Below the pieces are notes generated by a model. The model was not told the DNA's origin, did not search any database, and saw nothing but the letters and a program-made list of their open reading frames with translations. A DNA stretch of 34,533 nucleotides, from NCBI GenBank assembly GCA_027858815.1, contig JAQIBZ010000283.1, positions 1 to 34,533 on the forward strand, given 5' to 3'. The stretch's first letter is position 1. Each line of letters begins with the position of its first letter. The translations under genes and the position numbers were made by a program. Positions 243 to 34,533 of this stretch are shown piece by piece. The DNA comes from Desulfobacteraceae bacterium. GTDB lineage: Bacteria > Desulfobacterota > Desulfobacteria > Desulfobacterales > Desulfosalsimonadaceae.

Positions 243-299
243 TCGAACGCATTTTTCAGGGGGCGCTGCTTTTTGCGCTCCCGTGCAGCAAATTGTTGG
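243..299 (-). repeat. attC-like site (cassette 7 end)
   Basis: TCGAACGCATTTTTCAGGGGGCGCTGCTTTTTGCGCTCCCGTGCAGCAAATTGTTGG; complementary arms bounded by AACG/TTGTT. Confidence 0.7.
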
Positions 300-878: not shown

Positions 879-1007
879 CCCAACGCCGCCCTTCACCCGC
901 CGGGCGGAAATGCCGAAAACGGTTAAAAGAACAGTAAAATTGTAAATGTGAAACCCTTTAAAAAAGCGGCGCCGTAAGCCCGGTCGGCTGTGAAAGGGCA
1001 TTGTTAT
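879..1007 (-). repeat. attC-like site (cassette 6 end), long type
   Basis: Outer arms CCCAACGCCGCCCTTCACCCGCCGGGCGG and CGGTCGGCTGTGAAAGGGCATTGTT are imperfectly complementary. Confidence 0.7.
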
Positions 1008-1406: not shown

Positions 1407-1463
1407 ATAACGTGCTTTTCAGCGGCCGCGGCTTTTTGCGGTCCGCTGCAAAAGGCTTGTTAT
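1407..1463 (-). repeat. attC-like site (end of five-gene cassette)
   Basis: TATAACGTGCTTTTCAGCGGCCGCGGCTTTTTGCGGTCCGCTGCAAAAGGCTTGTTATG, imperfect hairpin; close relative of the site at 5703-5757. Confidence 0.85.
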
Positions 1464-1483
1464 GTATTTGGTAGTTGGTAAAT

Positions 1484-2800
1484 TTAATTAAGGATAGTCA
1501 AAATATTTCCTTTTGTATTCTTTTTATGAGGCATATTTTCAAAATATTTTTTAATAATTCTTAACTGTGTGTGAGTATATTCAGGATGTACAACAGAAAT
1601 ATCTCGGAAATAATTTTTACACCCTTCTTCTTTGTACAACATGTTTTTATTTTTGTATTTCGAAAATATTTTCGTACCTCTTAGTGGAAAAATAATACTG
1701 CATTCTATAGAATTAGGTTGGCATTTCAATAATAGATCTTCTGTTATAAGCAAATCATTTGAATCCTCAAAATATAAACCTGAAATAAGAAAGGCATTTG
1801 TTGCAACACCTATTTCATTACAAATTTCAAATGCTTTGACAATTTCATTATTAGTATTTTTTCTGTTTAAAAATAAGTTTCTTTTTTCTTCATTACCAAT
1901 TTCTATGCCTATGCTTACCCATCGCCACCCAACATTTTTTAGCTTTTTTAGCAAATCAATATTCTTATTGTTTATGTGCTCAGGTCTTGATAAAAATCCA
2001 AAAGTTAAGTTTTCTATTCTACCCTTCATGCGTTGAACAAACTCTAAACAGTAATCTGTATTATATAGAAAATTTTCATCAGAAAAAAACAATATGTCAA
2101 AGTCATATGTTTTATTTAAATGTTCAATTTCTTGAACTAATTTACCTATATTTCTTGATCTTATGCCGTATTTTAATTTTTGATTTAAAATTCCATTAGA
2201 ACAATAGTTACAATTAAAAGCGCAGCCTCTTGTTGACCAAGTAAAAATAATTTTCTTCAAATTATGATTATTTTTACGGATAGATATAAACGTTTCAGAG
2301 TGGTAACAAGTATAATCTGTAATATTAAAATCGTCTAAATTATAAACTTTAGAAATACCATTATTAATTATTTTGTTTTGATTTTTAAACCAAATACCTT
2401 GTATCTCTTTTGGCTGAATTCCATTTAGCAAGTCAAGAAGAGAATATTCACCATCTCCAACACAAACAAAATCAACAAAATTTTGCTTTAAGATAATTTC
2501 TGGGACTAAAGATGCAAATGGTCCTCCAAAAATAATTTTAGTGTTTGATTCTGCTTTAACTTCTTTTGCAATAGATAAAGCAGAATCAAGGTGCATTTCT
2601 GTAACTGAAAATCCAATATATTCAAACCCCTCTGAACAAATTTGGGAAATAATTCGGCTATAAGAACACTTATGTGTTTCATATATTATTAATTCATATC
2701 CGTGCTTTTTCAGGTAAGTATATAAACTCGCCAAGCCAACACTAATTTGACTATACTCAAAAGGTGAATCATTAAAATAAATAATTGCTATATCACCCAT
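1484..2800 (-). CDS. Radical SAM protein with N-terminal B12-binding-like domain
   Basis: STRGCAFNCNYCSNG (CxxxCxxC); N-terminal Rossmann-like region with FSVTEMHLDSAL, IIFGGPFASLVPE, VCVGDGEYSLLDLL. Confidence 0.88.
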   Translation of the reverse strand: MGDIAIIYFNDSPFEYSQISVGLASLYTYLKKHGYELIIYETHKCSYSRIISQICSEGFEYIGFSVTEMHLDSALSIAKEVKAESNTKIIFGGPFASLVPEIILKQNFVDFVCVGDGEYSLLDLLNGIQPKEIQGIWFKNQNKIINNGISKVYNLDDFNITDYTCYHSETFISIRKNNHNLKKIIFTWSTRGCAFNCNYCSNGILNQKLKYGIRSRNIGKLVQEIEHLNKTYDFDILFFSDENFLYNTDYCLEFVQRMKGRIENLTFGFLSRPEHINNKNIDLLKKLKNVGWRWVSIGIEIGNEEKRNLFLNRKNTNNEIVKAFEICNEIGVATNAFLISGLYFEDSNDLLITEDLLLKCQPNSIECSIIFPLRGTKIFSKYKNKNMLYKEEGCKNYFRDISVVHPEYTHTQLRIIKKYFENMPHKKNTKGNILTILN

Positions 2801-3446
2801 TAATATTATCCAGATTTATAATATATTCTAATAATTCAAATGCCATATCTGAATATTCAGCAATCCGTTTGGGTTTGTCATTTAGTTCTCCAATTTCGAC
2901 CTGTGAAATTTTGCCAGAAATATTATGCCCCTCTATAGCCATAGCCACATCAAATGCCCAATTATTTGGTAACTTAGAATAATTGAATAAATCTTTTTTA
3001 AACATATAGGTCCCCGATAACGGCATTTTAATATAAGATAATTCTGGAAGCTTTAGCTTAATTGCAGGTTTAGCAACTAAATTTCCGACAGGAAATTCAT
3101 CATAATTTGATTGATATATACCATTAACAAACACAACATTGTCACCTATAAATGAAATCAATGTTTCAATCCATTCCAGTTTGGGATTTATAATGTCACC
3201 ATCTATTTTTATAACCAAATCATTTGTGGTAGCTAATATGCCAGCTTTCATTGCATATCCTAAACCTTGTTCTTTGCACTTGACAACTTTTGCACCACAC
3301 TTTTTTGATACCTCAAACGTGTTATCAATTGAATTATTATCAACAACTATAATTTCGGTAACATACCCTGATTGATTAATTTCATTGATTATTTTTTCAA
3401 TTGTAGCTTCTATGTTAAGCCCAGGAATAACTACTGATAACTTCAT
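2793..3446 (-). CDS. Glycosyltransferase family 2
   Basis: SVVIPGLNIEATIEKIINEI, EIIVVDNNSIDNT, KIDGD; GT-A fold signature. Confidence 0.88.
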   Translation of the reverse strand: MKLSVVIPGLNIEATIEKIINEINQSGYVTEIIVVDNNSIDNTFEVSKKCGAKVVKCKEQGLGYAMKAGILATTNDLVIKIDGDIINPKLEWIETLISFIGDNVVFVNGIYQSNYDEFPVGNLVAKPAIKLKLPELSYIKMPLSGTYMFKKDLFNYSKLPNNWAFDVAMAIEGHNISGKISQVEIGELNDKPKRIAEYSDMAFELLEYIINLDNING

Positions 3447-4101
3447 TTATATTTTCAATCCTTTGTTTATTGAAATTTGATACTCCTTCAATATACGACT
3501 TTGGTGCTCGTCCATTCTTTTGAGCAGGATTCCCTGAGTATGCAATATTGGCTTCGGTATTTTTTGTAAGAACTGAACCTGCTGCAATATAACAACCTTC
3601 TGCAACTTTTATCCCCCCAATAATTAATGCCCTCCTACCGACAAATACATTTTTGCAAATTTCAGGTGATTTTTCTATTTCAGAAACAGTAACATCCTTA
3701 AATTTATGCAATAAATCACCTTGAGCTATAGAGTTTTCTCCAATTATGCTATTATTGCAGATAAAACCAGATATTGTGCAAAATTCACCTATTTTTACGT
3801 TGTCATAAACTCTTGCACCATATTCGATTACACTATATTTACCCACCAGCGTTTTCTCACCTATGTATGAGTGATAATCAAATCTACAATTATTATCGAT
3901 TTTTGCACCCAAACAAATAACACTGTTACCCATCACGATCGAATTATCACCTATTTCAGTATAATGATCTTTAACTTCATTTTGTACAGAAGTAGAAAAT
4001 TGAAATCCAGGAAAACCTATAATACAATTAGGCCCAATAAATACATTCTTTCCAATTCTAACATTTTTTGACAATGTAGCGGTAGGGTGTTTGAATTCCA
4101 T
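3415..4101 (-). CDS. Left-handed beta-helix (hexapeptide repeat) acyltransferase
   Basis: Repeated hexapeptides (IGKNVFIGPNCIIG, IGDNSIVMGNSVICLGAKI, IIGGIKVAEGCYIAAGSVLTKNTE). Confidence 0.85.
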   Translation of the reverse strand: MEFKHPTATLSKNVRIGKNVFIGPNCIIGFPGFQFSTSVQNEVKDHYTEIGDNSIVMGNSVICLGAKIDNNCRFDYHSYIGEKTLVGKYSVIEYGARVYDNVKIGEFCTISGFICNNSIIGENSIAQGDLLHKFKDVTVSEIEKSPEICKNVFVGRRALIIGGIKVAEGCYIAAGSVLTKNTEANIAYSGNPAQKNGRAPKSYIEGVSNFNKQRIENINEVISSYSWA

Positions 4102-4856
4102 TACAAATACCTTTTTATAAAATCACACGAAGTTGTAATAACTTCATCAGAATCTTCTTCAAGGCCGTGTGATGAATTTTTCAACCCAATAAGTTTCAAA
4201 TTTTTTGAAAGAGAATTGTTAACAAATTTTTCTGAGTCTTCGATAGATACAATTTCATCTTTTTCACCGTGAAAAATTATTGCAGGGGTATTACATTCCC
4301 ATCTGTAATTCAAAGGTTTATAATAATAAAACTCTATTGCCATTAAAGGATTCAAAACAAAGTTTTCTCCAATCACTATTTTATTATTTACACTTAATAG
4401 ATTATCAATTCCGTTAGAAGGAAAAAAAGATTTTGACCATTCGGAAATTGTCGAAGTGAATGTAGAGCCATAATCAATTACAGGATTTAACATTATCGCA
4501 CTGTTAAACGATAATTTTTTTTCTTGCATTAGCAAAAGGAGAATACTGGACCCAAAACTAGCAGTAATTATTGACACCCTATCATATTTCGCAAATAAAA
4601 AATTGATAACAGCATATAAATCTGCAATCATTCCTGGCAACGTAATTAATTCTGATTTTATGTCCGATTCACCATGCCCCCTAAAGTCAAATCTAAAAGT
4701 AGACAACCCCTTTTTATTAAGTTCCTCTGCAAAGTCATTATAAAACCCCCCCTCTTCTTTTGACGAAGTTATGCCATGACAAAGTAATACAACATCCGAT
4801 TTGCTTTCCACATTTTCCAAGAATTTAATATCATGATTGTCTATTGTTTTAATCAA
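4101..4856 (-). CDS. Alpha/beta hydrolase
   Basis: VVLLCHGITSSKEEGGFYNDFAEELNKKGLSTFRFDFRGHGES; nucleophile elbow ASFGS; IFHGEKDEIVS; C-terminal SSHGLEE. Confidence 0.85.
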   Translation of the reverse strand: MIKTIDNHDIKFLENVESKSDVVLLCHGITSSKEEGGFYNDFAEELNKKGLSTFRFDFRGHGESDIKSELITLPGMIADLYAVINFLFAKYDRVSIITASFGSSILLLLMQEKKLSFNSAIMLNPVIDYGSTFTSTISEWSKSFFPSNGIDNLLSVNNKIVIGENFVLNPLMAIEFYYYKPLNYRWECNTPAIIFHGEKDEIVSIEDSEKFVNNSLSKNLKLIGLKNSSHGLEEDSDEVITTSCDFIKRYL

Positions 4857-4858
4857 AA

Positions 4859-5641
4859 TTACCTCCTTTTAACTGCTTTCAAATCAACTATTATAATGTT
4901 TGAAACCTCGTTGCCTGTCATATTGCACTTAACTACTCCAAAAAAATCATTGTTTAAAAGATTATTCAAAAAACCTCTTTTCTTTTTAAACGATTTATTT
5001 AGCTCTTTAAAGCTTTGACTTGATTCAAAAAGCATAGATGCTGCTAAAACACCATGAGAACCACAGCCCGCCAATATTATCACTTTTTTGATAGTAGAGT
5101 AAGGATTGGTATGTCTTACAATTAAACCATAATCAATGTGGTCTAAAGTTGATTTAGAATATGCTTTTCCAAAAAACATTAAACTATCATTTTCATCAAA
5201 ATATATTTCTTTAGTAATATTTTCTAACATCGCTTTAGTACATGGGTTATGAAGCGGACCTCCAACTGAAACGATATATTCGTTAAAAATAGCTAGATAT
5301 TGTTTTGTTGCGTAATAATGCTTAATAATGGAATTGTCATACAAATTTCGTAATGATTGCATAATAGTTGCTGCAGCTGTTGCATCCGGCCCAGCTAATA
5401 GTGCAATATCATTTTGATCATTTTGTTCGATAGAACCACTAACGATATACATGTTACTGTTGTTTCTAAATGTGTATAATTTTCTTAGTCGATATCTAGA
5501 AGTAATCAAATATGTCAAGGTATTGGCAGTTGTCTTTACAACAATCTGCATACTCAAGACTATAAGTGAGGCCAATATACTTATAAAAAGGGGGATATAA
5601 TTTTTTGATATAATGGAAAACAAATTAATTATAAAATCCAT
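4859..5641 (-). CDS. Membrane-anchored protein of unknown family
   Basis: 260 aa with N-terminal TM helix (IPLFISILASLIVLSMQIVV); soluble region contains LLAGPDATAAATIM, VSVGGPLHNPCTKAMLE and ILAGCGSHGVLAASML. Confidence 0.6.
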   Translation of the reverse strand: MDFIINLFSIISKNYIPLFISILASLIVLSMQIVVKTTANTLTYLITSRYRLRKLYTFRNNSNMYIVSGSIEQNDQNDIALLAGPDATAAATIMQSLRNLYDNSIIKHYYATKQYLAIFNEYIVSVGGPLHNPCTKAMLENITKEIYFDENDSLMFFGKAYSKSTLDHIDYGLIVRHTNPYSTIKKVIILAGCGSHGVLAASMLFESSQSFKELNKSFKKKRGFLNNLLNNDFFGVVKCNMTGNEVSNIIIVDLKAVKRR

Positions 5642-5702
5642 TTTTTATTTAACCTTTAATTTTTTTCATATGTTTATCTTATTGAAATAAAGTTGAATTA
5701 CA

Positions 5703-5757
5703 TAACGTGATTTTCAGCAGCCGCTGCTTTTTGCGGTCTGCTGGAAAATGTTTGTTA
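5703..5757 (-). repeat. attC-like site (end of lspA cassette)
   Basis: TAACGTGATTTTCAGCAGCCGCTGCTTTTTGCGGTCTGCTGGAAAATGTTTGTTAG, imperfect hairpin. Confidence 0.85.
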
Positions 5758-6232
5758 GTTTCTTACCCCATTTTGAGGTGAATATAATTAACCCAATTGC
5801 CCCCACAGTTATAGCTATGTCGGCTACATTAAAAATGCCAGTTCGCAATGGACCAATACCAATTAGCATAAAATCGACTACCAAACCGTCATTAAAGGCT
5901 CTATCGTAGAGATTTCCAAAACCTCCACCGACGATAAGCAACCCAAGGATAAGATTTATCTTTGACATTGGTTTTATGGCAATATAAATAAGCCCGCCAA
6001 ACAATATTATCCCTACGGCAACTGTGAAGATATAAAACCTTAGGTCGCCGGGAAGAGTCCCTCCCAGACCTAACATAGCGCCACTATTTTCAACATAGAT
6101 AAATTTGAAAAATCCACCAAAATATGAAATTGGGTTATTGCCTTTTAAGCTATCTATGGCCTGAATCTTGGTTAGGCGGTCACACCCAACAAGCAATAAT
6201 AGAGTGGAAAATATTACGAAATATTTTTTCAT
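5714..6232 (-). CDS. lspA: Lipoprotein signal peptidase (signal peptidase II), integron cassette copy
   Basis: CDRLTKIQAID, VENSGAMLGLGG, GGGFGNLYDRAFNDGLVVDFM and GIFNVADIAITVG match LspA motifs with both catalytic Asp regions. Confidence 0.88.
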   Translation of the reverse strand: MKKYFVIFSTLLLLVGCDRLTKIQAIDSLKGNNPISYFGGFFKFIYVENSGAMLGLGGTLPGDLRFYIFTVAVGIILFGGLIYIAIKPMSKINLILGLLIVGGGFGNLYDRAFNDGLVVDFMLIGIGPLRTGIFNVADIAITVGAIGLIIFTSKWGKKLTNIFQQTAKSSGC

Positions 6233-6266: not shown

Positions 6267-6310
6267 CTAACGCCGCATTCAGCGGCTTGTCCGCTGCAAT
6301 GCTTTGTTAG
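6267..6310 (-). repeat. attC-like site (end of TIR-like cassette), short type
   Basis: CTAACGCCGCATTCAGCGGCTTGTCCGCTGCAATGCTTTGTTAG, imperfect hairpin. Confidence 0.85.
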
Positions 6311-6321
6311 CTCTTTTGCTG

Positions 6322-7146
6322 CTATAAGAGCTTATTAAAGTCAAGTTCATAACCAGCATCTTTCATTTCTTTAGCAATATCTACTTGCCAGTCTTTATCA
6401 GAAATATAAACCATGCCGCTAATATCATTTGGCAACTCTATGGCACCAGCCACCAATGGAACTACATTTTCTCTGCCAAGCTTACCTATCAAATAACCGT
6501 GCTCGAAAACAACATTTTGTCTCGCACGAGCTTTAAGCTCACCTTTATCGGCGCTTTCTTTGACATTTCCAAGATCATCTGGCGTATAGAGAACTATCGC
6601 AAACCCTACATTCGAATATTTTTCTATTTTTTCGATGATTGTCCGCCCACGACTAGCTTGTTCGTGCAATATAACCGCTTTAAATCCAAGCTTTTCTATA
6701 AAACGTGCTGTACGTTCTTTGGCCTCACCATCATGCCCATGAACAATAAATACTTGGGTTAAATCTTTATCCTCGTTCTCACTCGCTAAGTCAGAAGACT
6801 CCTTTCCAGATTCATTTTCTGGATCTGGAAAGTCATATTCATCGTTTTCTACATCTAAGGTAAGCGAGTCAATGTATGAAATCATTGTTTCACCATCCTC
6901 CCGCCAGAACCTTTGAGCGTCGGATTCTCCTCGATGAACAACATACGCGATATGAGAAAGCTTGCTGTTGAGTGTGGAGACTTCCGCTGGTAAGTTCTCG
7001 TTTAAAAACTGGGTGAACTTGCGCCGCCAAGTATTAAATCGATCCCTTCCGAATGAACCCCCTCTTTGCTCGTATGCGTTAACAACCTCTCCAAGCAATC
7101 TTTCTCGGAAAGACTCAAGTCCTTCCAACACCTCTTTTTTATTCAT
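6322..7146 (-). CDS. TIR-like nucleotide-binding protein (CAP12/Pycsar-effector-like TIR, PF10137-like)
   Basis: C-terminal QVFIVHGHDGEAKERTARFIEKLGFKAVILHEQASRGRTIIEKIEKYSNVGFAIVLYTPDDLG...RARQNVVFEHGYLIGKLGRENVVPL is the classic signature of this family. Confidence 0.88.
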   Translation of the reverse strand: MNKKEVLEGLESFRERLLGEVVNAYEQRGGSFGRDRFNTWRRKFTQFLNENLPAEVSTLNSKLSHIAYVVHRGESDAQRFWREDGETMISYIDSLTLDVENDEYDFPDPENESGKESSDLASENEDKDLTQVFIVHGHDGEAKERTARFIEKLGFKAVILHEQASRGRTIIEKIEKYSNVGFAIVLYTPDDLGNVKESADKGELKARARQNVVFEHGYLIGKLGRENVVPLVAGAIELPNDISGMVYISDKDWQVDIAKEMKDAGYELDFNKLL

Positions 7147-7170
7147 ATCTTCCTTACCTAATAGGAGAGC

Positions 7171-7267
7171 TAACGCCGCAGTAAGCTGCCGAAAAAGCCG
7201 ACACGACAGCCTACAAATTTCACGATAAACAAACTCGGCTTTTTTGGTCAGCTTGAGTGCAATTGTT
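7171..7267 (-). repeat. attC-like site (end of methyltransferase cassette)
   Basis: TAACGCCGCAGTAAGCTGCCGAAAAAGCCGA pairs imperfectly with TCGGCTTTTTTGGTCAGCTTGAGTGCAATTGTTA. Confidence 0.85.
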
Positions 7268-7976
7268 ATCTTTTTATTGCTACATAACCGCCAAAGAGAT
7301 AGGCTTTAAAAAATTTTTGAACCTGAATAAAACCCGCTTCTATAAATAGCAATTCGATACGCTTTTCAGATATGAAGTGAACCTCTTTTTCACGCATTGC
7401 AAATTCTTCATTAACCCTATCGTTTTCGGCTCTTATAAATAGCTGCTGATTTTTCCAGGCAGCATTGAGAACATTATATTCATCTGAGCCAATCTCTCCT
7501 TCAAGATCAACAAGAACTATAGGTGCACCTGGTTTTAACTTGTCCGCAATGGCTTTCAAGAAATACAATTTTGCACCATCATCAGGTAAAAAGTGCATAA
7601 CCAGAATAGCTGTGGCAGCATCAAAGTCTTTCTCTGCTACATCATCAATTAGTCCCAGCACAAGGGAGATTTTGCTCTTCAGAGTGGCCGCCGCTACTTT
7701 TTCCCTGGCAATAGAAAGCATCGGCTCTGCTGGATCAAAACCGGTAAAAGACCAATTGGGATTGTTTTGTGAACAGTCAATTATCTCTTTTCCTGTTCCA
7801 GCACCTGCCACTAAAATTCTCGCCACACTGTTCAGCCTATCCCTTAGAAGGTGCTGTGTTAACTCATAAATGGCTTGATAAGCAGGTATTATTTTATGTG
7901 CGGTATCATCATATTCATTGGACCATTCACCATTGAAATCTATTTGTTTTTCCATAAGTATAGACTGCCTTATCAA
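7266..7976 (-). CDS. Class I SAM-dependent methyltransferase (integron cassette gene)
   Basis: ILVAGAGTGKEIIDCSQNNPNWSFTGFDPAEPMLSIARE (SAM motif I/II); LVLGLIDDV; ILVMHFLP. Confidence 0.88.
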   Translation of the reverse strand: MIRQSILMEKQIDFNGEWSNEYDDTAHKIIPAYQAIYELTQHLLRDRLNSVARILVAGAGTGKEIIDCSQNNPNWSFTGFDPAEPMLSIAREKVAAATLKSKISLVLGLIDDVAEKDFDAATAILVMHFLPDDGAKLYFLKAIADKLKPGAPIVLVDLEGEIGSDEYNVLNAAWKNQQLFIRAENDRVNEEFAMREKEVHFISEKRIELLFIEAGFIQVQKFFKAYLFGGYVAIKR

Positions 7977-8024: not shown

Positions 8025-8150
8025 TAACGTCTCCCGGTCACCTGCGCCGAAAGCTCCCACAAAAGTTGTAAAAAGAACAAATATTTTCTATACATCAATA
8101 TCTGAAAAAACGCCAGCTTTCGGCGTCAGAGTGCGCCGGGTTGTTGGGCG
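8025..8150 (-). repeat. attC-like site (end of first cassette), long type
   Basis: TAACGTCTCCCGGTCACCTGCGCCGAAAGCT pairs with AGCTTTCGGCGTCAGAGTGCGCCGGGTTGTTGGGC. Confidence 0.88.
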
Positions 8151-8159
8151 GTGCATTAG

Positions 8160-8933
8160 CTATTTCTGTCCATATATTACCATGCGAAGAGACTCGTAAA
8201 GAACATGCTTTTGCTTTTCCATTTCATTCAGTATTTCTATAGCCTTTTCTCTTTTTCCAATTTTAAGGTACACTTTTGCCAAATCCATATGAGTCATACT
8301 GAGTTGATCATCAAGATCAATTGACTTTTTATAGCTCTGTATCGCCAATTCGAGTTTACCAAGACCATGATACGCATCGCCAAGGCCACCATGTGATATA
8401 ACATGAGTTGGATTTGCTCTTAAAGCTACTTTGTACTCTATTATGGCTTTTTCATAACGCTTGTTGTTGAGGTGGTCTACTGCAATATGATACCGGGCCA
8501 TATAATGGTTTGGGTTTAGTTCTGCAGTGCGTTTGAACTCTTTGATTGCCTTTTTTTCATAGTTTGGTTGTAGGCCGTATGTCTCAAGGGTGCGCTGTAA
8601 TTCATCATCAGTGATTTCCCCCTGCGAGGGAGGACTGTTCACTATTTGTTCATAAATATAACTTTGAGTAGCTGCTCTATGTGATCTTTGATATTTTTTG
8701 AAAAATACATATCCAAGCAAAAAATGGGCTTCGTCGGAATCTGGTTTGATTGATATTGCATGTTCGTATTCGTCCTGCGCTTTATCAAGGTTCCCCTGCC
8801 TATGAAAATCCTTGCCTTGGAGAAGGTGATATTCAAAATTATTGCCTGTGTCTGGCCCATCCTCTTCAGCTTGTATGTTCACAACAATGCTTAAAACAAG
8901 CAATAGTGCTAAAAATGTAATGTAAATTTTCAT
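8160..8933 (-). CDS. TPR-repeat protein with signal peptide (first cassette)
   Basis: MKIYITFLALLLVLSIVVNIQA signal peptide, followed by TPR units (A..YHIAVDHLNNKRYEKAIIEYKVALRANP, AHGGLGDAYHGLGKLELAIQSYKKSIDLD). Start chosen at 8933 rather than the track start 8957. Confidence 0.85.
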   Translation of the reverse strand: MKIYITFLALLLVLSIVVNIQAEEDGPDTGNNFEYHLLQGKDFHRQGNLDKAQDEYEHAISIKPDSDEAHFLLGYVFFKKYQRSHRAATQSYIYEQIVNSPPSQGEITDDELQRTLETYGLQPNYEKKAIKEFKRTAELNPNHYMARYHIAVDHLNNKRYEKAIIEYKVALRANPTHVISHGGLGDAYHGLGKLELAIQSYKKSIDLDDQLSMTHMDLAKVYLKIGKREKAIEILNEMEKQKHVLYESLRMVIYGQK

Positions 8934-8950
8934 AATTAACTCTCTGTAGC

Positions 8951-9112
8951 CCAACAATTATTGGAAGTACTAATCGGCGCTTTATTTTACGCCCAATTTG
9001 CTTACGAAATCTTCATATCACGCCAATTGGGCGTATATTACCCGAAATAAGGGTGATATGAGGAAAAAGTTCTTGATATCACATTTATCAATATGATAAC
9101 TTGAAAGCCATG
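8951..9112. promoter_or_regulatory. Putative attI region between intI and the first cassette
   Basis: Minus-strand GTTGGGC core site at 8957-8951 just before the first cassette gene. Inverted repeat TACGCCCAATT (8988-8998) / AATTGGGCGTA (9025-9035) and TTACCC...GGGTGA nearby. Confidence 0.6.
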
Positions 9113-9184: not shown

Positions 9185-10156
9185 ATGCTCAATTCGCCAA
9201 AACTTCTGGATCAGGTAAGAAATCTCATTCGTTTGAAGCACTATAGCATAAGAACAGAAGGGACTTATGTCAGTTGGATAAAACGCTATATTTATTTCCA
9301 TAACAAACGACACCCAAAGGATATGGGAGAAAATGAAATCCGGCAATTTTTAACCGATCTGGCAGTAAATCGGAAAGTCGCTGCTTCGACCCAAAACCAG
9401 GCTTTTAATGCATTACTGTTTTTATATCGTGAGGTATTGAAACAGGAATTTAATAATTTAGGGGATGTGGTACGTGCGAAAACAACCCGAAAACTGCCGG
9501 TTGTATATACCCAGTCAGAAATTCGCATCATTATAAACCAGCTTGAAGGCCGGAACTGGCTGATGGGCCAGACAATGTATGGTGCAGGATTAAGGGTTAT
9601 GGAATGCGTTCGTCTACGGGTAAAGGACATTGACTTTGGTTACCGACAAATAGTTGTGCGTGACGGAAAAGGCCGTAAGGATCGAATTACCTTACTCCCG
9701 GATATTATGGTTGATAATCTTAAAAGACATCTTGAAAAAGTCAAATCGATTCATGATTTTGACCTAAAAGCGGGTTTCGGAACTGTTTACATGCCCTATG
9801 CACTGGAAAGAAAATATAAACATGCAGATCGAAGTTGGTCATGGCAATGGGTATTTCCTGCGTCAAAACGGTCCATTGATCCACGGAGCAAAATTGAGCG
9901 GAGGCATCATATAAATGAGTCTGTTATTCAGAAGGCCGTCAAAAAAGCGACTCGCAGTGCCGGCATAACAAAAACAGGCAATTGCCATGCCTTGCGCCAT
10001 TCCTTTGCAACCCACCTTCTTGAATCCGGCTATGATATTCGGACCATACAGGAACTGCTGGGGCACAAAGATGTATCCACCACCATGATCTATACCCATG
10101 TGCTCAACCGTGGCGGTCGTGGGGTAAAGAGTCCGGGGGATATGTTATGGAGCTAA
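9185..10156 (+). CDS. intI: Integron integrase (tyrosine recombinase)
   Basis: R...[39 protein letters not shown] catalytic region, plus the IntI-type insertion [42 protein letters not shown] before ATG 9185; the track start at 9140 is also possible. Confidence 0.95.
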
Positions 10157-10773
10157 CCGACAGACAACTGAGTGTTTATGAATATATCCTTCACCATCAC
10201 CAGCAGCATAGCATGGCGCCCACGGTTCGGGAGATCTGTGAATACCTGGGATTAAAAGGGCCGGCCGGTGTTCACCGGATTTTAAATGTGCTGATTGACA
10301 AAGGATTTATCGAATCCATTTCCGGTAAAAAGCGGTCATGGCGGCCAATTCTCAGCCCTATGATCGGACTATATGAGGCAAAAACAATTCCCTTGGCCGG
10401 GCATATTGCCGCGGGAACCCCCATTAGTATATATGAGCATGTGGAAGAATATCTTCCGGTTGATCCGGCTTTATATGGTTATGAATCATGTTTTGCCGTC
10501 AGGGTAACGGGCGATTCCATGATCGACGCCCATATTGCCGACGGCGACCTGGCCATCATTGTGCCGGTCAATGACACAGATGACGGCTCCATTGCTGCGG
10601 TTATTGTGGAAGATATTCTGATTGAGGCAACCCTGAAAATCATTCGCCGCAAGAAAAATGTCATTGAACTGCATTCCGCAAACCGCAAGTACCCTCCGAT
10701 CATTTTCAAAGGAAAGGACCGGAAAAAAATCCGTATTGTCGGGAAGTATGTGGGGCTGATCCGGGTTAGATAA
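10147..10773 (+). CDS. lexA: LexA-family SOS repressor / S24 peptidase
   Basis: Winged [15 protein letters not shown]...[31 protein letters not shown]; Ala-Gly cleavage site [16 protein letters not shown] Ser; EATLKII Lys. Confidence 0.93.
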
Positions 10774-13587: not shown

Positions 13588-14972
13588 GGCATTCCTCTTT
13601 TTTCATCCATTGTCGCGATGATGCTCTCTTTGAGAATATCGACTATCTGATCAACGCCTGCTTTATCAATAATTAACGGCGGGGATAATATACATAAATT
13701 TTCATACGGCCGGACAATCAGCCCTTTTTCCTGACAAAATTCATCCACTCTTTGCGCAACGGCTATATTCTCATCTTCATTGTCAGAAACCACGCATTCA
13801 ACACACGCCATTAAATTAATACCGCGAACATCACCAACAATAGGAAGCTCCTTTAACGTTTTCAGGCGTTTCATGAAATAAGCACCCACCTCGAGGACAT
13901 GGTCGTTTATTTTATCCCGCTTCATGATTTCAAGATATTTTAAGGCAGCCGCACACGTCACCGGATGTCCGGAATAGGTAAATCCATGGGTATAATAAGA
14001 CTTCTCGGCAGCAGCGTCTCCGCTGATCTGATTCACCAGTTTTTCTGAAATGATTGCCGCACCCAATGGTTGATAACCGGATGTGATTCCTTTTGCCACG
14101 GTAATAATATCCGGAACGATGCCGAAAACCTCTTCTGATGCAAAATAATGCCCCAGCCGTCCAAAAGCGGTAACCACCTCATCGGAGATATACAGCACGT
14201 TGTATTCTCTGCATACATCCAATGTCTTTTTATGATATCCACGGGGCGGAACAATCACCCCACCGGAACCCATGACCGGTTCGGCAATAAAACACGCCAC
14301 CTTATCCGGCCCGATCTCTAAAATTTTATCCCTTAATTCGCTGACCTTCAGATCACAAAAATCCTCTATGCTCATTCCCTCAGGTCTTTTATATGGATTG
14401 GGATCAGAGGTGGAATGAACAATATCGGTTACATAATCAAAATAGCTTCTGTCACATTTTTTACCATTTAAGGAGGCCGTTAAATAGGTGCTGCCATGAT
14501 AGGCATTCTCACGATAAATAATGTGTTTTTTTTCAGGTTGGCCCAGACAATTAAAATAATAATGGGCAAAGCGGATCGCTGATTCAACAGCCGTTGAACC
14601 GCTGTTTGTAAATTGGAAACAGTTCAGATCACCGGGGGTTAATTTGCTGAGTTCAGATGCCAACTGGATAGAGGGAGGACTCGTCATCGCGCCAAAAGGT
14701 GTATAATACGCCAGTTGAACACACTGGTCTGAAATAGCTTTTGCCATTTCTTTATTTCCATACCCCAGGTTCACACACCACATACCTGAGATGGCATCAA
14801 GGTATCTGTTGCCCTCATTATCAAAAACATGAACCCCTTTAGCGGATTCAATAATCATAGACTCAGCATCACTTCCCAGATCCGACCACGGATGGATAAT
14901 GTGTTTTTTATCTTTTGCTGCAAGATTTATATCTTTTCCCGCAAGAATCATATCTTCTTCTTTAAAATTCAT
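13584..14972 (-). CDS. Class III (omega) aminotransferase, PLP-dependent
   Basis: NSGSTAVESAIRFA, YHGSTYLTASLNG, FIAEPVMGSGGVIVPP, YISDEVVTAFGRLG, ITVAKGITSGYQPLGA. Start 14972 preferred (AAAGGATATT-ATG). Confidence 0.92.
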   Translation of the reverse strand: MNFKEEDMILAGKDINLAAKDKKHIIHPWSDLGSDAESMIIESAKGVHVFDNEGNRYLDAISGMWCVNLGYGNKEMAKAISDQCVQLAYYTPFGAMTSPPSIQLASELSKLTPGDLNCFQFTNSGSTAVESAIRFAHYYFNCLGQPEKKHIIYRENAYHGSTYLTASLNGKKCDRSYFDYVTDIVHSTSDPNPYKRPEGMSIEDFCDLKVSELRDKILEIGPDKVACFIAEPVMGSGGVIVPPRGYHKKTLDVCREYNVLYISDEVVTAFGRLGHYFASEEVFGIVPDIITVAKGITSGYQPLGAAIISEKLVNQISGDAAAEKSYYTHGFTYSGHPVTCAAALKYLEIMKRDKINDHVLEVGAYFMKRLKTLKELPIVGDVRGINLMACVECVVSDNEDENIAVAQRVDEFCQEKGLIVRPYENLCILSPPLIIDKAGVDQIVDILKESIIATMDEKRGMP

Positions 14973-14980
14973 AATATCCT

Positions 14981-16195
14981 TTAAATTAATATATTTTCCG
15001 AGACCTTCCCCCGCATACAATGATTCGACATCATGGATGACGCATATCCGCCCGCATTGATAAAAACAAGGGGGTCTCCTTCCTTGATCTGATCCGGCAT
15101 GGAAAAATTATCTTTCCATACATCCAGCGACTCGTTGATATTGCCCACAATCGTAACGGTTTTCATCTTGTCTGTTTTTTGCTGATGAACCACCGGCTCA
15201 CAGGGCAGTCCGTAAAACGTCGGTTCAATGGCCAGGTTAAACCCGCCATTAACACCGATAAAATCCGTTGCCCGTTTTCTCTCAACCGTATTGACCTCCA
15301 ACACCAGAATACCGCTGTCTTTGACAATATAGTCTCCGGGTTCAACACAAATGGTCAGCCCTTTATTTCCAAAATGGGACTTTATAATCGAAACCCAGGC
15401 ATCCAGATCCAGAGACACATCATCAATGTCATGAGGCACCCCGAGCCCGCCGCCTAAGTTAACAAACTTCAAATCTTTCACTTTGTCCGTAAACCAGTGC
15501 GTGGCATCCAGGATTTCATTAAATATGGATAATTGATTGTTCAGATAACCGCATCCGGTATGAAAATGGATGGTCTCCACGATGAAGTTATGCTCCGCAG
15601 CAAGCCGCAGCGCTTCTTCAAACTGCTCCCTGTAAATACCAAACTTGGTGGTTTTATCTCCGCTGTATTTGAGTGTTTCATTATCCCGGTAACCAACACC
15701 CATAGCCGGGTTAACACGGATGCCGATTCTGCGATTTTGACAAAACTGTCCCAATCGCCGGATGGTACTTAAAGAATCACAATTTAAAGCCACATCCGGA
15801 TTATCGGCAAGTAATCTCAACTCATCATTGGTCATTGCATGAGCTGTATATGAAATTTCACTGCGTTTAAAGCCGCAGGAAAACGCATGCAATAATTCAT
15901 TGGGAGAACATATATCCGCACCACAAGAGCAATTATTTTTAATATACGTCAGGACAGGGGCAAACCGGTTGGCTTTTATTGCATAAAAAATTTTATACGC
16001 ATCAAGCTGGCTCAAGGCATTATGCAATCGCTCGATATTCGCAGCAATCCGGCGTCCGCTATAGAAAAAAGCCGGAGTATGCGTTAAACCGATTAAATCT
16101 GTCACAGAATTCCCGGAGAAAACCAACTGCCCGTCTTTATAGCAAAGATCTTCCCTTTCCCACCACAAACGGTTGTTTTGTGGAATCATCCACAC
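14981..16195 (-). CDS. Fold-III PLP-dependent decarboxylase-like protein (LysA/ODC family), divergent active site
   Basis: FYAIKANRFAPVL, HFHTGCGYLN, NLGGGLGVP, EPGDYIVKDSG, NAGGYASSMMSNHCMRGK; usual CE/DSxD motif reads NESLD. Confidence 0.88.
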   Translation of the reverse strand: MWMIPQNNRLWWEREDLCYKDGQLVFSGNSVTDLIGLTHTPAFFYSGRRIAANIERLHNALSQLDAYKIFYAIKANRFAPVLTYIKNNCSCGADICSPNELLHAFSCGFKRSEISYTAHAMTNDELRLLADNPDVALNCDSLSTIRRLGQFCQNRRIGIRVNPAMGVGYRDNETLKYSGDKTTKFGIYREQFEEALRLAAEHNFIVETIHFHTGCGYLNNQLSIFNEILDATHWFTDKVKDLKFVNLGGGLGVPHDIDDVSLDLDAWVSIIKSHFGNKGLTICVEPGDYIVKDSGILVLEVNTVERKRATDFIGVNGGFNLAIEPTFYGLPCEPVVHQQKTDKMKTVTIVGNINESLDVWKDNFSMPDQIKEGDPLVFINAGGYASSMMSNHCMRGKVSENILI

Positions 16196-16656
16196 TTCCT
16201 TTCCAGGTCTCGAAGGTATTTTCTGCCTGAATCATTAATCGATTCTTTTCGACCGGTCACCCATCCCCGACAGTTAACCGAACCGCAGACACAAGGAAAT
16301 TGTCGGAATAATATATCTTCTGTTGAGGCATAATCCATTGTCAACGCCTCTCCTTTTTCAATATCCTGCAATGCCCAGATTTCAAGCTTGTTCATGTCCA
16401 GGCATACAAGCGGATCACACGAATGTAACAAAAGTCCTGAAAAGTGCGGGTCATAGAGATGCAGGTGGGGGGTAATCTGAAGGGTATGCTGAAGAATATA
16501 AGGCACCGTAATTCCCGTCATTCTGGCAACCATCTCTCCCTTTTTAAAATGGCGTTCTACATAAATGCCGTTTCCTTGTGTTTCGCAATGGTTAATCGTG
16601 AAATCATCAATAACTGGATAGTCTTTGCCGCTTTCCAACTCATAAGGATAAATCAT
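16186..16656 (-). CDS. SET-domain protein (putative protein-lysine methyltransferase)
   Basis: GNGIYVERHFKKGEMVA, LLHSCDPLVCLDMNKLEIWALQDIEKGEALTMDYASTED, post-SET CVCGSVNCRGWVTG. Confidence 0.88.
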   Translation of the reverse strand: MIYPYELESGKDYPVIDDFTINHCETQGNGIYVERHFKKGEMVARMTGITVPYILQHTLQITPHLHLYDPHFSGLLLHSCDPLVCLDMNKLEIWALQDIEKGEALTMDYASTEDILFRQFPCVCGSVNCRGWVTGRKESINDSGRKYLRDLERKCG

Positions 16657-16718
16657 TGTGTCCTCTTTCTGTTTACATGTAATAATTAGTCTCTGAACAA
16701 AAACCCTGAAATTAAGTT

Positions 16719-16803
16719 GTCATTACGAGGAGTGAGGAACGAACGACGAAGTAATCCCCTGTCTTTAATGAGATTGCTTCGGTCGTGCCTCCCTCGCAAC
16801 GAC
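16719..16803. repeat. REP/MITE-like palindromic element
   Basis: GTCATTACGAGGAGTGAGGAACGAACGACGAAGTAATC ... GAGATTGCTTCGGTCGTGCCTCCCTCGCAACGAC are imperfect inverted arms; outer TAATTAGTCTCTGAAC/GTTCAATCACTAATTA flank the element. Confidence 0.75.
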
Positions 16804-16907
16804 AAAATATTCATTATTGAGGGACTTTCCGTTCAATCACTAATTAGTTAAAATAAGAATTCCCTCTAAAGAACAAAAAATATGGCTGATAATTTGGTGA
16901 ATCACCA

Positions 16908-18113
16908 CTACGCCGCTTTCAAAATTTTAGACGCTTTTTGCAGTGCCTCGACTTTATCAGGCTGTTCCCACGGAAATATGTCTCTCCCAAAATGACCATA
17001 TGCAGCGGTCTGGCGATAGGACCAGCTTTCCGGTTTTGTCAGATTCAGGTTTTCGATGAGTGCTGCCGGGCGAAAATCAAAAATGTCACTGTCTTTTACA
17101 ATCATCTCAATAATCGATTCATCGATAAGTGCTGTCCCGTAAGTATCGACATTGATTGATACCGGTTTTGAAACACCAATGGCATAGGCGACCTGAATTT
17201 CACATTTTTCAGCCAGGCCGGCCGCAACGATATTTTTTGCCGCATAGCGGGCATAATAGGCAGCCGAACGATCCACCTTGGACGGATCTTTTCCTGAAAA
17301 AGCGCCGCCGCCATGGCTCCCGACACCGCCGTAGGTGTCCACGATAATTTTTCTTCCGGTCAGTCCGGCATCCGCATAGGGTCCGCCAAGGTAAAAAGTA
17401 CCCGTCGGGTTAATAAAATATTCGGTATCCTTTTTCAGCAGTCCGGTGGATTGAAACTGATCCTTGACAACTTCGATCAGGTCTTTGCGAATTTTTTCCA
17501 ACGACACCTCATCGGTCTGGTGGGAAATTACCACTGATTTGATAAATTCCGGACGGCCGTGATTATATGCGACGGATACCTGGGCCTTGGAATCAGGTCT
17601 GAGGTATGAAATTTCTTTTGATTGCCGCATGTTCTCAAGGGTCTTGAGAAGCCTGTGACTATAGGCGATAGGAGCGGGCATCATTTCCGGTGTTTCGGAT
17701 GTGGCATACCCGAACATCATTCCCTGATCGCCGGCGCCTTGCTCATCATAGAGTCCTTCACCCCGGGTGACGCCCTGGGAGATATCCGGTGACTGGCCAT
17801 GGATTCGACTGATATACTCAAAATTATCGCCACAAAACAAAAGTCGTTCATCGTCATATCCGATTTCATTGACAACCTGTCTGGCAATTTTTTCCGGATT
17901 TATTTCTTCCCATCCATTGCATGTAATCTCTCCCACATTTGCAACCAGATTATATCCTGCCATGGTTTCACAGGCCACACGACCTTTGGGATCTTTTTCA
18001 AGGCATGCATCAACAATTGCGTCTGAAATCTGATCACATATTTTATCCGGATGTCCGCTACCGACAGATTCTGATGTAAATACATGCTTGCTGCTGATCT
18101 TACTCATAATCAA
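16908..18113 (-). CDS. metK: S-adenosylmethionine synthetase
   Basis: HVFTSESVGSGHPDKICDQISDAIVDA, GGGAFSGKDPSKVDRSAAYYARYAAKNIVAAGLA. Confidence 0.97.
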   Translation of the reverse strand: MIMSKISSKHVFTSESVGSGHPDKICDQISDAIVDACLEKDPKGRVACETMAGYNLVANVGEITCNGWEEINPEKIARQVVNEIGYDDERLLFCGDNFEYISRIHGQSPDISQGVTRGEGLYDEQGAGDQGMMFGYATSETPEMMPAPIAYSHRLLKTLENMRQSKEISYLRPDSKAQVSVAYNHGRPEFIKSVVISHQTDEVSLEKIRKDLIEVVKDQFQSTGLLKKDTEYFINPTGTFYLGGPYADAGLTGRKIIVDTYGGVGSHGGGAFSGKDPSKVDRSAAYYARYAAKNIVAAGLAEKCEIQVAYAIGVSKPVSINVDTYGTALIDESIIEMIVKDSDIFDFRPAALIENLNLTKPESWSYRQTAAYGHFGRDIFPWEQPDKVEALQKASKILKAA

Positions 18114-34140: not shown

Positions 34141-34177
34141 TGTTTTAGTTGCTGCCTAATTAGTGCGACATGTGGTG

Positions 34178-34533
34178 TCACATCTTGATTTGTGATTTAA
34201 TCTTATTATACAATCTTTTCAATATTTTATCATCACTCAATTTTACTCTGAAAGACGAAACATTTCTACTGACAGAAGAATAAGTGACATGGAACAGGTT
34301 GCCGATCTCCTCGTTTGTGTACACCCCATATTCCCAGATGCAATACATCAATAAATCCCTGTTTATTTTAGCCGTCCCATACATTCTTCCGGATGCAACG
34401 AATTCTTCCGGATCACAATCAAGTAGAGCAGCCGCTTTTTTAATAATGACACGAGGATCTGCGGAACGAAAGATATCCCGCTGCTGGGGCTGTTCTTTAT
34501 GCGGGGTATCCGGTAAATGGGCCCTTTTTATTT
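34178..34533 (-). CDS. REP-associated tyrosine transposase (RAYT-like), C-terminal part, runs off window
   Basis: Open to the window edge: ...PHKEQPQQRDIFRSADPRVIIKKAALLDCDPEEFVASGRMYGTAKINRDLLMYCIWEYGVYTNEEIGNLFHVTYSSVSRNVSSF..., DnaA-like HTH tail typical of this group. Confidence 0.75.
   Translation of the reverse strand, partial: IKRAHLPDTPHKEQPQQRDIFRSADPRVIIKKAAALLDCDPEEFVASGRMYGTAKINRDLLMYCIWEYGVYTNEEIGNLFHVTYSSVSRNVSSFRVKLSDDKILKRLYNKIKSQIKM

Follow-up and report, generated by a model that had tools for sequence, protein, structure and literature searches.

Can an integron cassette carry a whole operon? A cassette generally holds one open reading frame (ORF), although cassettes with two or without any have been described as well (PMC8618304), and integron-associated genes in a large metagenomic catalogue have a median length of 402 nt (PMC7370490). 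The question is raised by a 34,533-nt stretch of DNA from a Desulfobacteraceae bacterium (GenBank assembly GCA_027858815.1, contig JAQIBZ010000283.1; hereafter the window), which is one contig of a fragmented draft genome of 4.85 Mb in 663 contigs. Near one end of the window, five genes lie between two consecutive attC sites of an integron. In the explanation we favor, to which we assign a probability of about 0.6, positions 1409-5704 constitute a single 4.3-kb cassette that contains a whole operon, is mobilized by the integrase as a unit and most likely serves to modify an envelope glycan or a lipid-linked sugar.

An earlier note, made from the sequence alone, had described five minus-strand genes between attC-like sites. 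The ORF list and Pfam return the same genes and the same families, namely a membrane protein (hereafter P5), an alpha/beta hydrolase, an LbetaH acyltransferase-like protein, a family 2 glycosyltransferase (GT2) and a B12-binding radical SAM enzyme (Table 1), and the attC cores fall within 2 nt of where the note had placed them. The cassette measures 4,295 bp, with 4.24 kb between its two attC sites. Its genes form a tight operon with overlaps at three of the four junctions: genes 2 and 3 overlap by 1 nt (TAATG), genes 3 and 4 by 32 nt and genes 4 and 5 by 8 nt, while genes 1 and 2 are separated by a 2-nt gap with a good Shine-Dalgarno motif (AGGAGG, read from the sequence) upstream. The upstream boundary of the cassette is about 60 bp from the first start codon, and the last stop codon is 23 bp from the downstream boundary. 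By gene, the GC content is 27-33% in the operon compared with 39-48% in the other genes listed.

The attC sites were called by our own arm-duplex scoring, combined with dinucleotide shuffles and a covariation count on four sites of the same length, and not by HattCI. More specifically, we computed the duplex energy of the two 26-nt arms for every AAC...GTT pair with a spacing of 36-150 nt. The array has six scored sites, whose arm-duplex energies on the gene strand are -30.3, -29.7, -25.4, -23.0, -20.4 and -16.0 kcal/mol. Arm energy alone is insufficient as proof of attC because AAC...GTT pairs in coding DNA outside the integron reach -24 kcal/mol. We therefore rely on two other results. The sites flanking the five-gene unit, the site of cassette 7 and one array site of the same-genus genome G221 share a common stem, with both sides changed in 9 of its 21 pairs; 88% of the cells in this stem are pairing, as opposed to 36-44% once the partner has been shifted by 1-3 columns. 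In addition, the site of cassette 2 recurs in the G221 array with 97% identity, flanked there by other genes. Given this covariation and recurrence, both flanking sites are genuine attC, as the earlier note had supposed. The note had also reported that the interior lacks attC, and our scan agrees: the best interior candidate reaches -13.3 kcal/mol, weaker than 29 of the 30 dinucleotide shuffles of the interior, whose minima range from -12.4 to -19.7 kcal/mol. The unit lies between attC sites, of which the one at its 3' end is its own, and contains none; it is therefore an integron cassette by a definition that can be tested on sequence.

The unit is the fifth of seven cassettes between the integron integrase IntI and the contig end, all on the minus strand and with their attC sites in one orientation. 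In order, they encode a TPR protein, a methyltransferase, a TIR protein, LspA, the five-gene unit, a cupin and a membrane protein, and measure 925, 854, 903, 565, 4,295, 527 and 637 bp from boundary to boundary (the first using an attI position read by eye). With 4,295 bp compared with 527-925 bp in the other six, the five-gene unit is about five times the size of its neighbors. IntI is full length and intact, and its orthologue in G221 is 83% identical.

P5, the product of the first gene, has no match in Pfam, NCBIfam or PADLOC, and none in plasmids, phages or viral contigs. Distant homologues were found in five other genomes, and five homologues were aligned; a genome-wide scan with the P5 alignment returned only the copy in genome G333. 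AlphaFold, working from a shallow alignment, gave a mean predicted local distance difference test score of 43.5 for P5 alone and 34.7 for P5 with one homologue. P5 shares weak, colinear GGPxxNxxT and (V/I)xAG motifs with the S-layer outer domain PF05124 (S-layer protein 9fsa), but the similarity is not significant, and P5 differs in having a membrane anchor and in lacking S-layer architecture. Membership of PF05124 was rejected, with scores of 13.2 and 11.7 bits (E 0.07 and 0.2) against a Pfam cut-off of 23.9.

The earlier note had treated the operon as a mobile unit and not as an ordinary chromosomal locus, and comparison with other genomes sustains this distinction. Across 389 genomes of the class, close relatives are absent for each of the three proteins searched (P5, the radical SAM enzyme and the LbetaH protein). 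Within this sample, then, the group does not carry the operon as an ordinary chromosomal locus; this absence suggests that the unit may be mobile. The radical SAM protein was not found in viral contigs either. Operons containing both P5 and LbetaH genes do recur in attC contexts, as seen in all three such operons found, with both boundaries in two (the five-gene operon and the one at locus L012) and only the upstream attC in the third (locus L025). L012, in genome G081 of the same family, holds a four-gene operon encoding a GT4 glycosyltransferase, a polysaccharide deacetylase, LbetaH and P5. This operon lies exactly between two 72-nt direct repeats that are 89% identical, 3,870 bp apart and fold as attC. 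No protein of G081 scores above the cut-off as an integron integrase, so L012 is an orphan attC cluster. L025, a decayed integron in genome G678 from another class of the phylum, has a truncated intI, one cassette and an attC (2052-2136), followed by an overlapping operon of an ORF without a family, a hydrolase, LbetaH and P5. The window proteins are 33% identical to their L025 counterparts for both the hydrolase (E 1e-31) and LbetaH (E 5e-18). In both G081 and G678, the best whole-genome match of the window LbetaH is the P5-linked copy, which stands about 10-11 orders of magnitude in E-value ahead of the next. The other two operons have GC contents of 33.9% and 33.1%, making all three P5-LbetaH operons AT-rich. 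Their companions vary and include a hydrolase, glycosyltransferases, a deacetylase and a radical SAM enzyme. We propose that these operons may represent a loose family of multi-gene cassettes in which P5 and LbetaH are the core and the partners are interchangeable.

Other gene sets were observed around the P5 homologues. L012 contains another apparent multi-gene cassette (14538-17070), with a protein kinase and two unknown genes between attC-like sites at 18018-18078 and 14515-14564; an nSTAND-Mrr gene adjoins this kinase cassette and precedes an attC-like site at 6658-6721. At locus L040 (4599-9124), which is at the end of a contig, a P5 homologue has a methyltransferase and a TIR-NB-ARC protein as neighbors, possibly as part of a conflict system.

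The catalytic motifs of the predicted enzymes look intact. The candidate hydrolase triad S100-D200-H230 is invariant between the five-gene cassette and L025, the two with a hydrolase, and H132 of LbetaH is invariant among the three proteins; the radical SAM protein carries a CAFNCNYC motif (CX3CX2C) and GT2 a DGD motif. The LbetaH proteins are closest to sugar acyltransferases of the NeuD/PglB/VioB and QdtC types and to DapD/DapH-type acyltransferases, the nearest NCBIfam model of the window protein being NeuD/PglB/VioB (2.7e-23, below cut-off). The nearest solved relatives of GT2 are GpgS, a glucosyl-3-phosphoglycerate synthase (2e-16), and dolichol-phosphate mannose synthase (9e-12), and the nearest NCBIfam model of the radical SAM protein is TIGR04072, lipid biosynthesis B12/rSAM (2.7e-30, well below cut-off). 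In G081, a GT4 and a deacetylase are found instead. A common theme would be that groups are added to and removed from a sugar or sugar-lipid close to the membrane, where P5 would be anchored by its N-terminal helix. We infer the modification of a surface glycan or glycolipid because the enzyme classes point to sugar and lipid modification. The earlier note had suggested a pathway that makes or modifies a glycolipid or other small molecule; the enzyme classes would fit such a putative pathway, but the membrane protein lacks a named family.

Judging from the architecture, IntI would release cassette 5 through attC x attC recombination as a single circle, which could then insert at attI or at another attC. 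If the integrase moves the unit as one circle, the five functions would arrive or leave together. The products would act at the inner membrane face on an envelope glycan or lipid-linked sugar. In the order that we propose, GT2 would transfer a sugar, LbetaH would acylate it and the hydrolase would remove or trim the acyl group, while the B12 radical SAM enzyme would methylate or rearrange the lipid or sugar and P5 might anchor or sense. The cell would thereby acquire a surface modification that can be exchanged for another and could alter recognition by phages or predators. A broader idea, toward which we remain somewhat skeptical, is that Desulfobacterota integrons specialize in capturing complete envelope-modifying operons: cassettes of 4-5 genes with P5 and LbetaH would exchange partners, provide plug-in surface chemotypes that aid phage evasion and be under-counted as attC clustering stops at about 4 kb.

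Several observations weigh against a mobile, surface-modifying operon cassette. In L025 the downstream attC is lost, and a Y1-type transposase gene (identified by eye) stands in its place. Three P5 homologues (L013, L040 and L041) are without an LbetaH neighbor and without a convincing attC. There is no single conserved pathway, since the companion enzymes differ between cassettes, and the NCBIfam matches of all five proteins are far below the curated cut-offs. Finally, the window is a single contig, and its source draft genome has an estimated contamination of 6.2%.

The structure of the unit could also have arisen otherwise. Ordinary cassettes might have merged by loss of the intervening attC into an accidental series of genes, as is known for class 1 integrons (PMC4670013). 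We regard such a fusion as very improbable here: the coding sequences overlap or lie 2 nt apart, which leaves no room for attC remnants, attC-like signal in the interior does not exceed chance, and hydrolase-LbetaH-P5 recurs in L025 and LbetaH-P5 in L012. Alternatively, an ordinary operon might have been inserted by a non-integron event and stand between two attC by chance. Transposase genes do occur near other P5 loci (L013 and L025), but none is present in 1464-5700, the boundaries are tight around the first start and last stop, and the L012 module is likewise exactly bounded by attC, leaving this account hardly credible.

With regard to function, the cassette might instead be a defense or conflict system in which the glyco-enzymes and membrane protein answer phage, with P5 as sensor or effector. 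The TIR protein of a neighboring cassette matches the candidate defense family PDC-S35 (E 4.7e-84), and P5 homologues are found beside a TIR-NB-ARC gene (L040), STAND-Mrr and kinase cassettes (L012) and an HD protein (L013). We nevertheless consider this unlikely, as no recognized effector domain is present and PADLOC, of the four proteins scanned, returned nothing for P5, the hydrolase and LbetaH and a weak match of the radical SAM protein to PDC-M51A (E 1.8e-9). With this weak match as the only one among the four proteins scanned, assignment to a catalogued anti-phage defense system was rejected. Defense and surface modification as a means of phage escape are compatible. More doubtful is a diffusible small molecule or glycolipid signal as the product in place of a modified surface. 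Natural product pathways commonly include cobalamin radical SAM enzymes and hydrolases, and the nearest relative of GT2, glucosyl-3-phosphoglycerate synthase, makes an osmolyte in the cytosol; on the other hand, the cassette is without a carrier protein, ligase, exporter or core synthase, and the close solved relatives of LbetaH include nucleotide-sugar acyltransferases (QdtC). Modification of the envelope is the function that we prefer.

The features of the integron are collected in Table 1. The attC of cassette 7 belongs to the same attC family as the two sites flanking the five-gene unit, so the array runs on toward the contig end. The pair formed by intI and the lexA-like gene (9188-10773, same strand) is kept in G221, and a second copy is present in the host genome on contig 93 (L022), where intI carries an internal deletion. 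G221 has three intI genes (83, 75 and 59% identical), and its orthologous integron (L053, contig 127, 11901-17907) holds wholly different cassettes with attC spacings of 501-1,300 bp. Cassette 3 (6322-7146) encodes a CAP12/PCTIR-type TIR protein, the PDC-S35 match. Cassette 4 encodes signal peptidase II (LspA, 5714-6232), which is a function rarely expected of a cassette, and its stop codon lies within its own attC. A short dispersed repeat at 34172-34360 is common to two places on G221 contig 127 (81-90% identical). An Rfam scan of the window found nothing.

Table 1. Positions of the integron features and of the genes of the five-gene cassette in the window.
Feature	Position	Strand	Evidence or remark
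attC of cassette 7 (membrane protein 308-865)	~245..297	-	Stem family that of 1409-1461
attC of cassette 6 (cupin 1004-1375)	882..1005	-	Arm duplex -30.3 kcal/mol
attC of five-gene cassette, its downstream boundary	1409..1461	-	Arm duplex -25.4 kcal/mol; covariation
Gene 5, B12-binding radical SAM enzyme	1484..2800	-	Pfam 4.2e-19 and 8.3e-15
Gene 4, family 2 glycosyltransferase (GT2)	2793..3446	-	Pfam 1.2e-16
Gene 3, LbetaH (hexapeptide) sugar acyltransferase-like	3415..4101	-	Pfam 7.6e-25
Gene 2, alpha/beta hydrolase (Hydrolase_4)	4101..4856	-	Pfam 8.3e-22
Gene 1, P5, N-terminal membrane helix and uncharacterized domain	4859..5641	-	GGP-N-T, D-Y-G, N-P and A-G motifs
attC of cassette 4 (LspA 5714-6232), upstream boundary of five-gene cassette	5704..5756	-	Covariation with three homologous sites
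attC of cassette 3 (TIR protein 6322-7146)	6269..6308	-	Arm duplex -23.0 kcal/mol
attC of cassette 2 (methyltransferase 7266-7976)	7172..7267	-	97% identical 99-bp copy (of 7169-7267) in G221 orthologous array
attC of cassette 1 (TPR protein 8160-8933)	8026..8142	-	Arm duplex -29.7 kcal/mol
Putative attI core GTTGGGC, insertion point of cassette 1	8949..8955	-	Read by eye
Integron integrase IntI	9188..10156	+	TIGR02249 integrase_gron, E 2.3e-138, 461 bits against a cut-off of 265
LexA-like repressor	10147..10773	+	Pfam Peptidase_S24 and LexA_DNA_bind; overlaps end of intI

Integrons are regarded as gathering small genes one at a time. Should whole operons travel as a single cassette, one recombination event could move a multi-step pathway. 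That the P5-LbetaH core turns up in attC contexts in two classes suggests that selection, and not accident, is at work. In standard surveys, attC sites must be less than 4 kb apart to be placed in one array (PMC9668308); the present array would tend to be split at the five-gene unit, because the distance between its attC sites exceeds that limit. P5 itself represents a membrane protein family that awaits an entry in Pfam, NCBIfam and PADLOC. We did not find a cassette of four or five genes described in the literature, in a search that left subscription papers mostly outside.

Compared with known systems, the array resembles sedentary chromosomal integrons in its IntI, single orientation, attC after each unit and AT-rich accessory genes, and may do so in its putative attI as well; it departs from them in that a typical cassette holds a single ORF and this one holds five genes in 4,295 bp. 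In toxin-antitoxin and other two-gene cassettes, too, a single attC serves more than one co-transcribed gene, but here the five genes are enzymatic or membrane genes and no toxin is among them. The fused cassettes of class 1 integrons also contain several genes without attC between them; here, in contrast, the genes overlap, attC remnants are absent and the core recurs in other genomes. In Vibrio rotiferianus DAT722, cassette deletion altered the surface polysaccharide and the authors proposed that cassette products decorate it (PMC3590141). The genes described here may similarly decorate envelope sugars, acetyltransferases being included in both cases; the Vibrio effect, however, was seen across many cassettes deleted together, whereas the present operon is one unit. 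What is new here is the size of the cassette, the number of its genes and the recurrence of the P5-LbetaH core.

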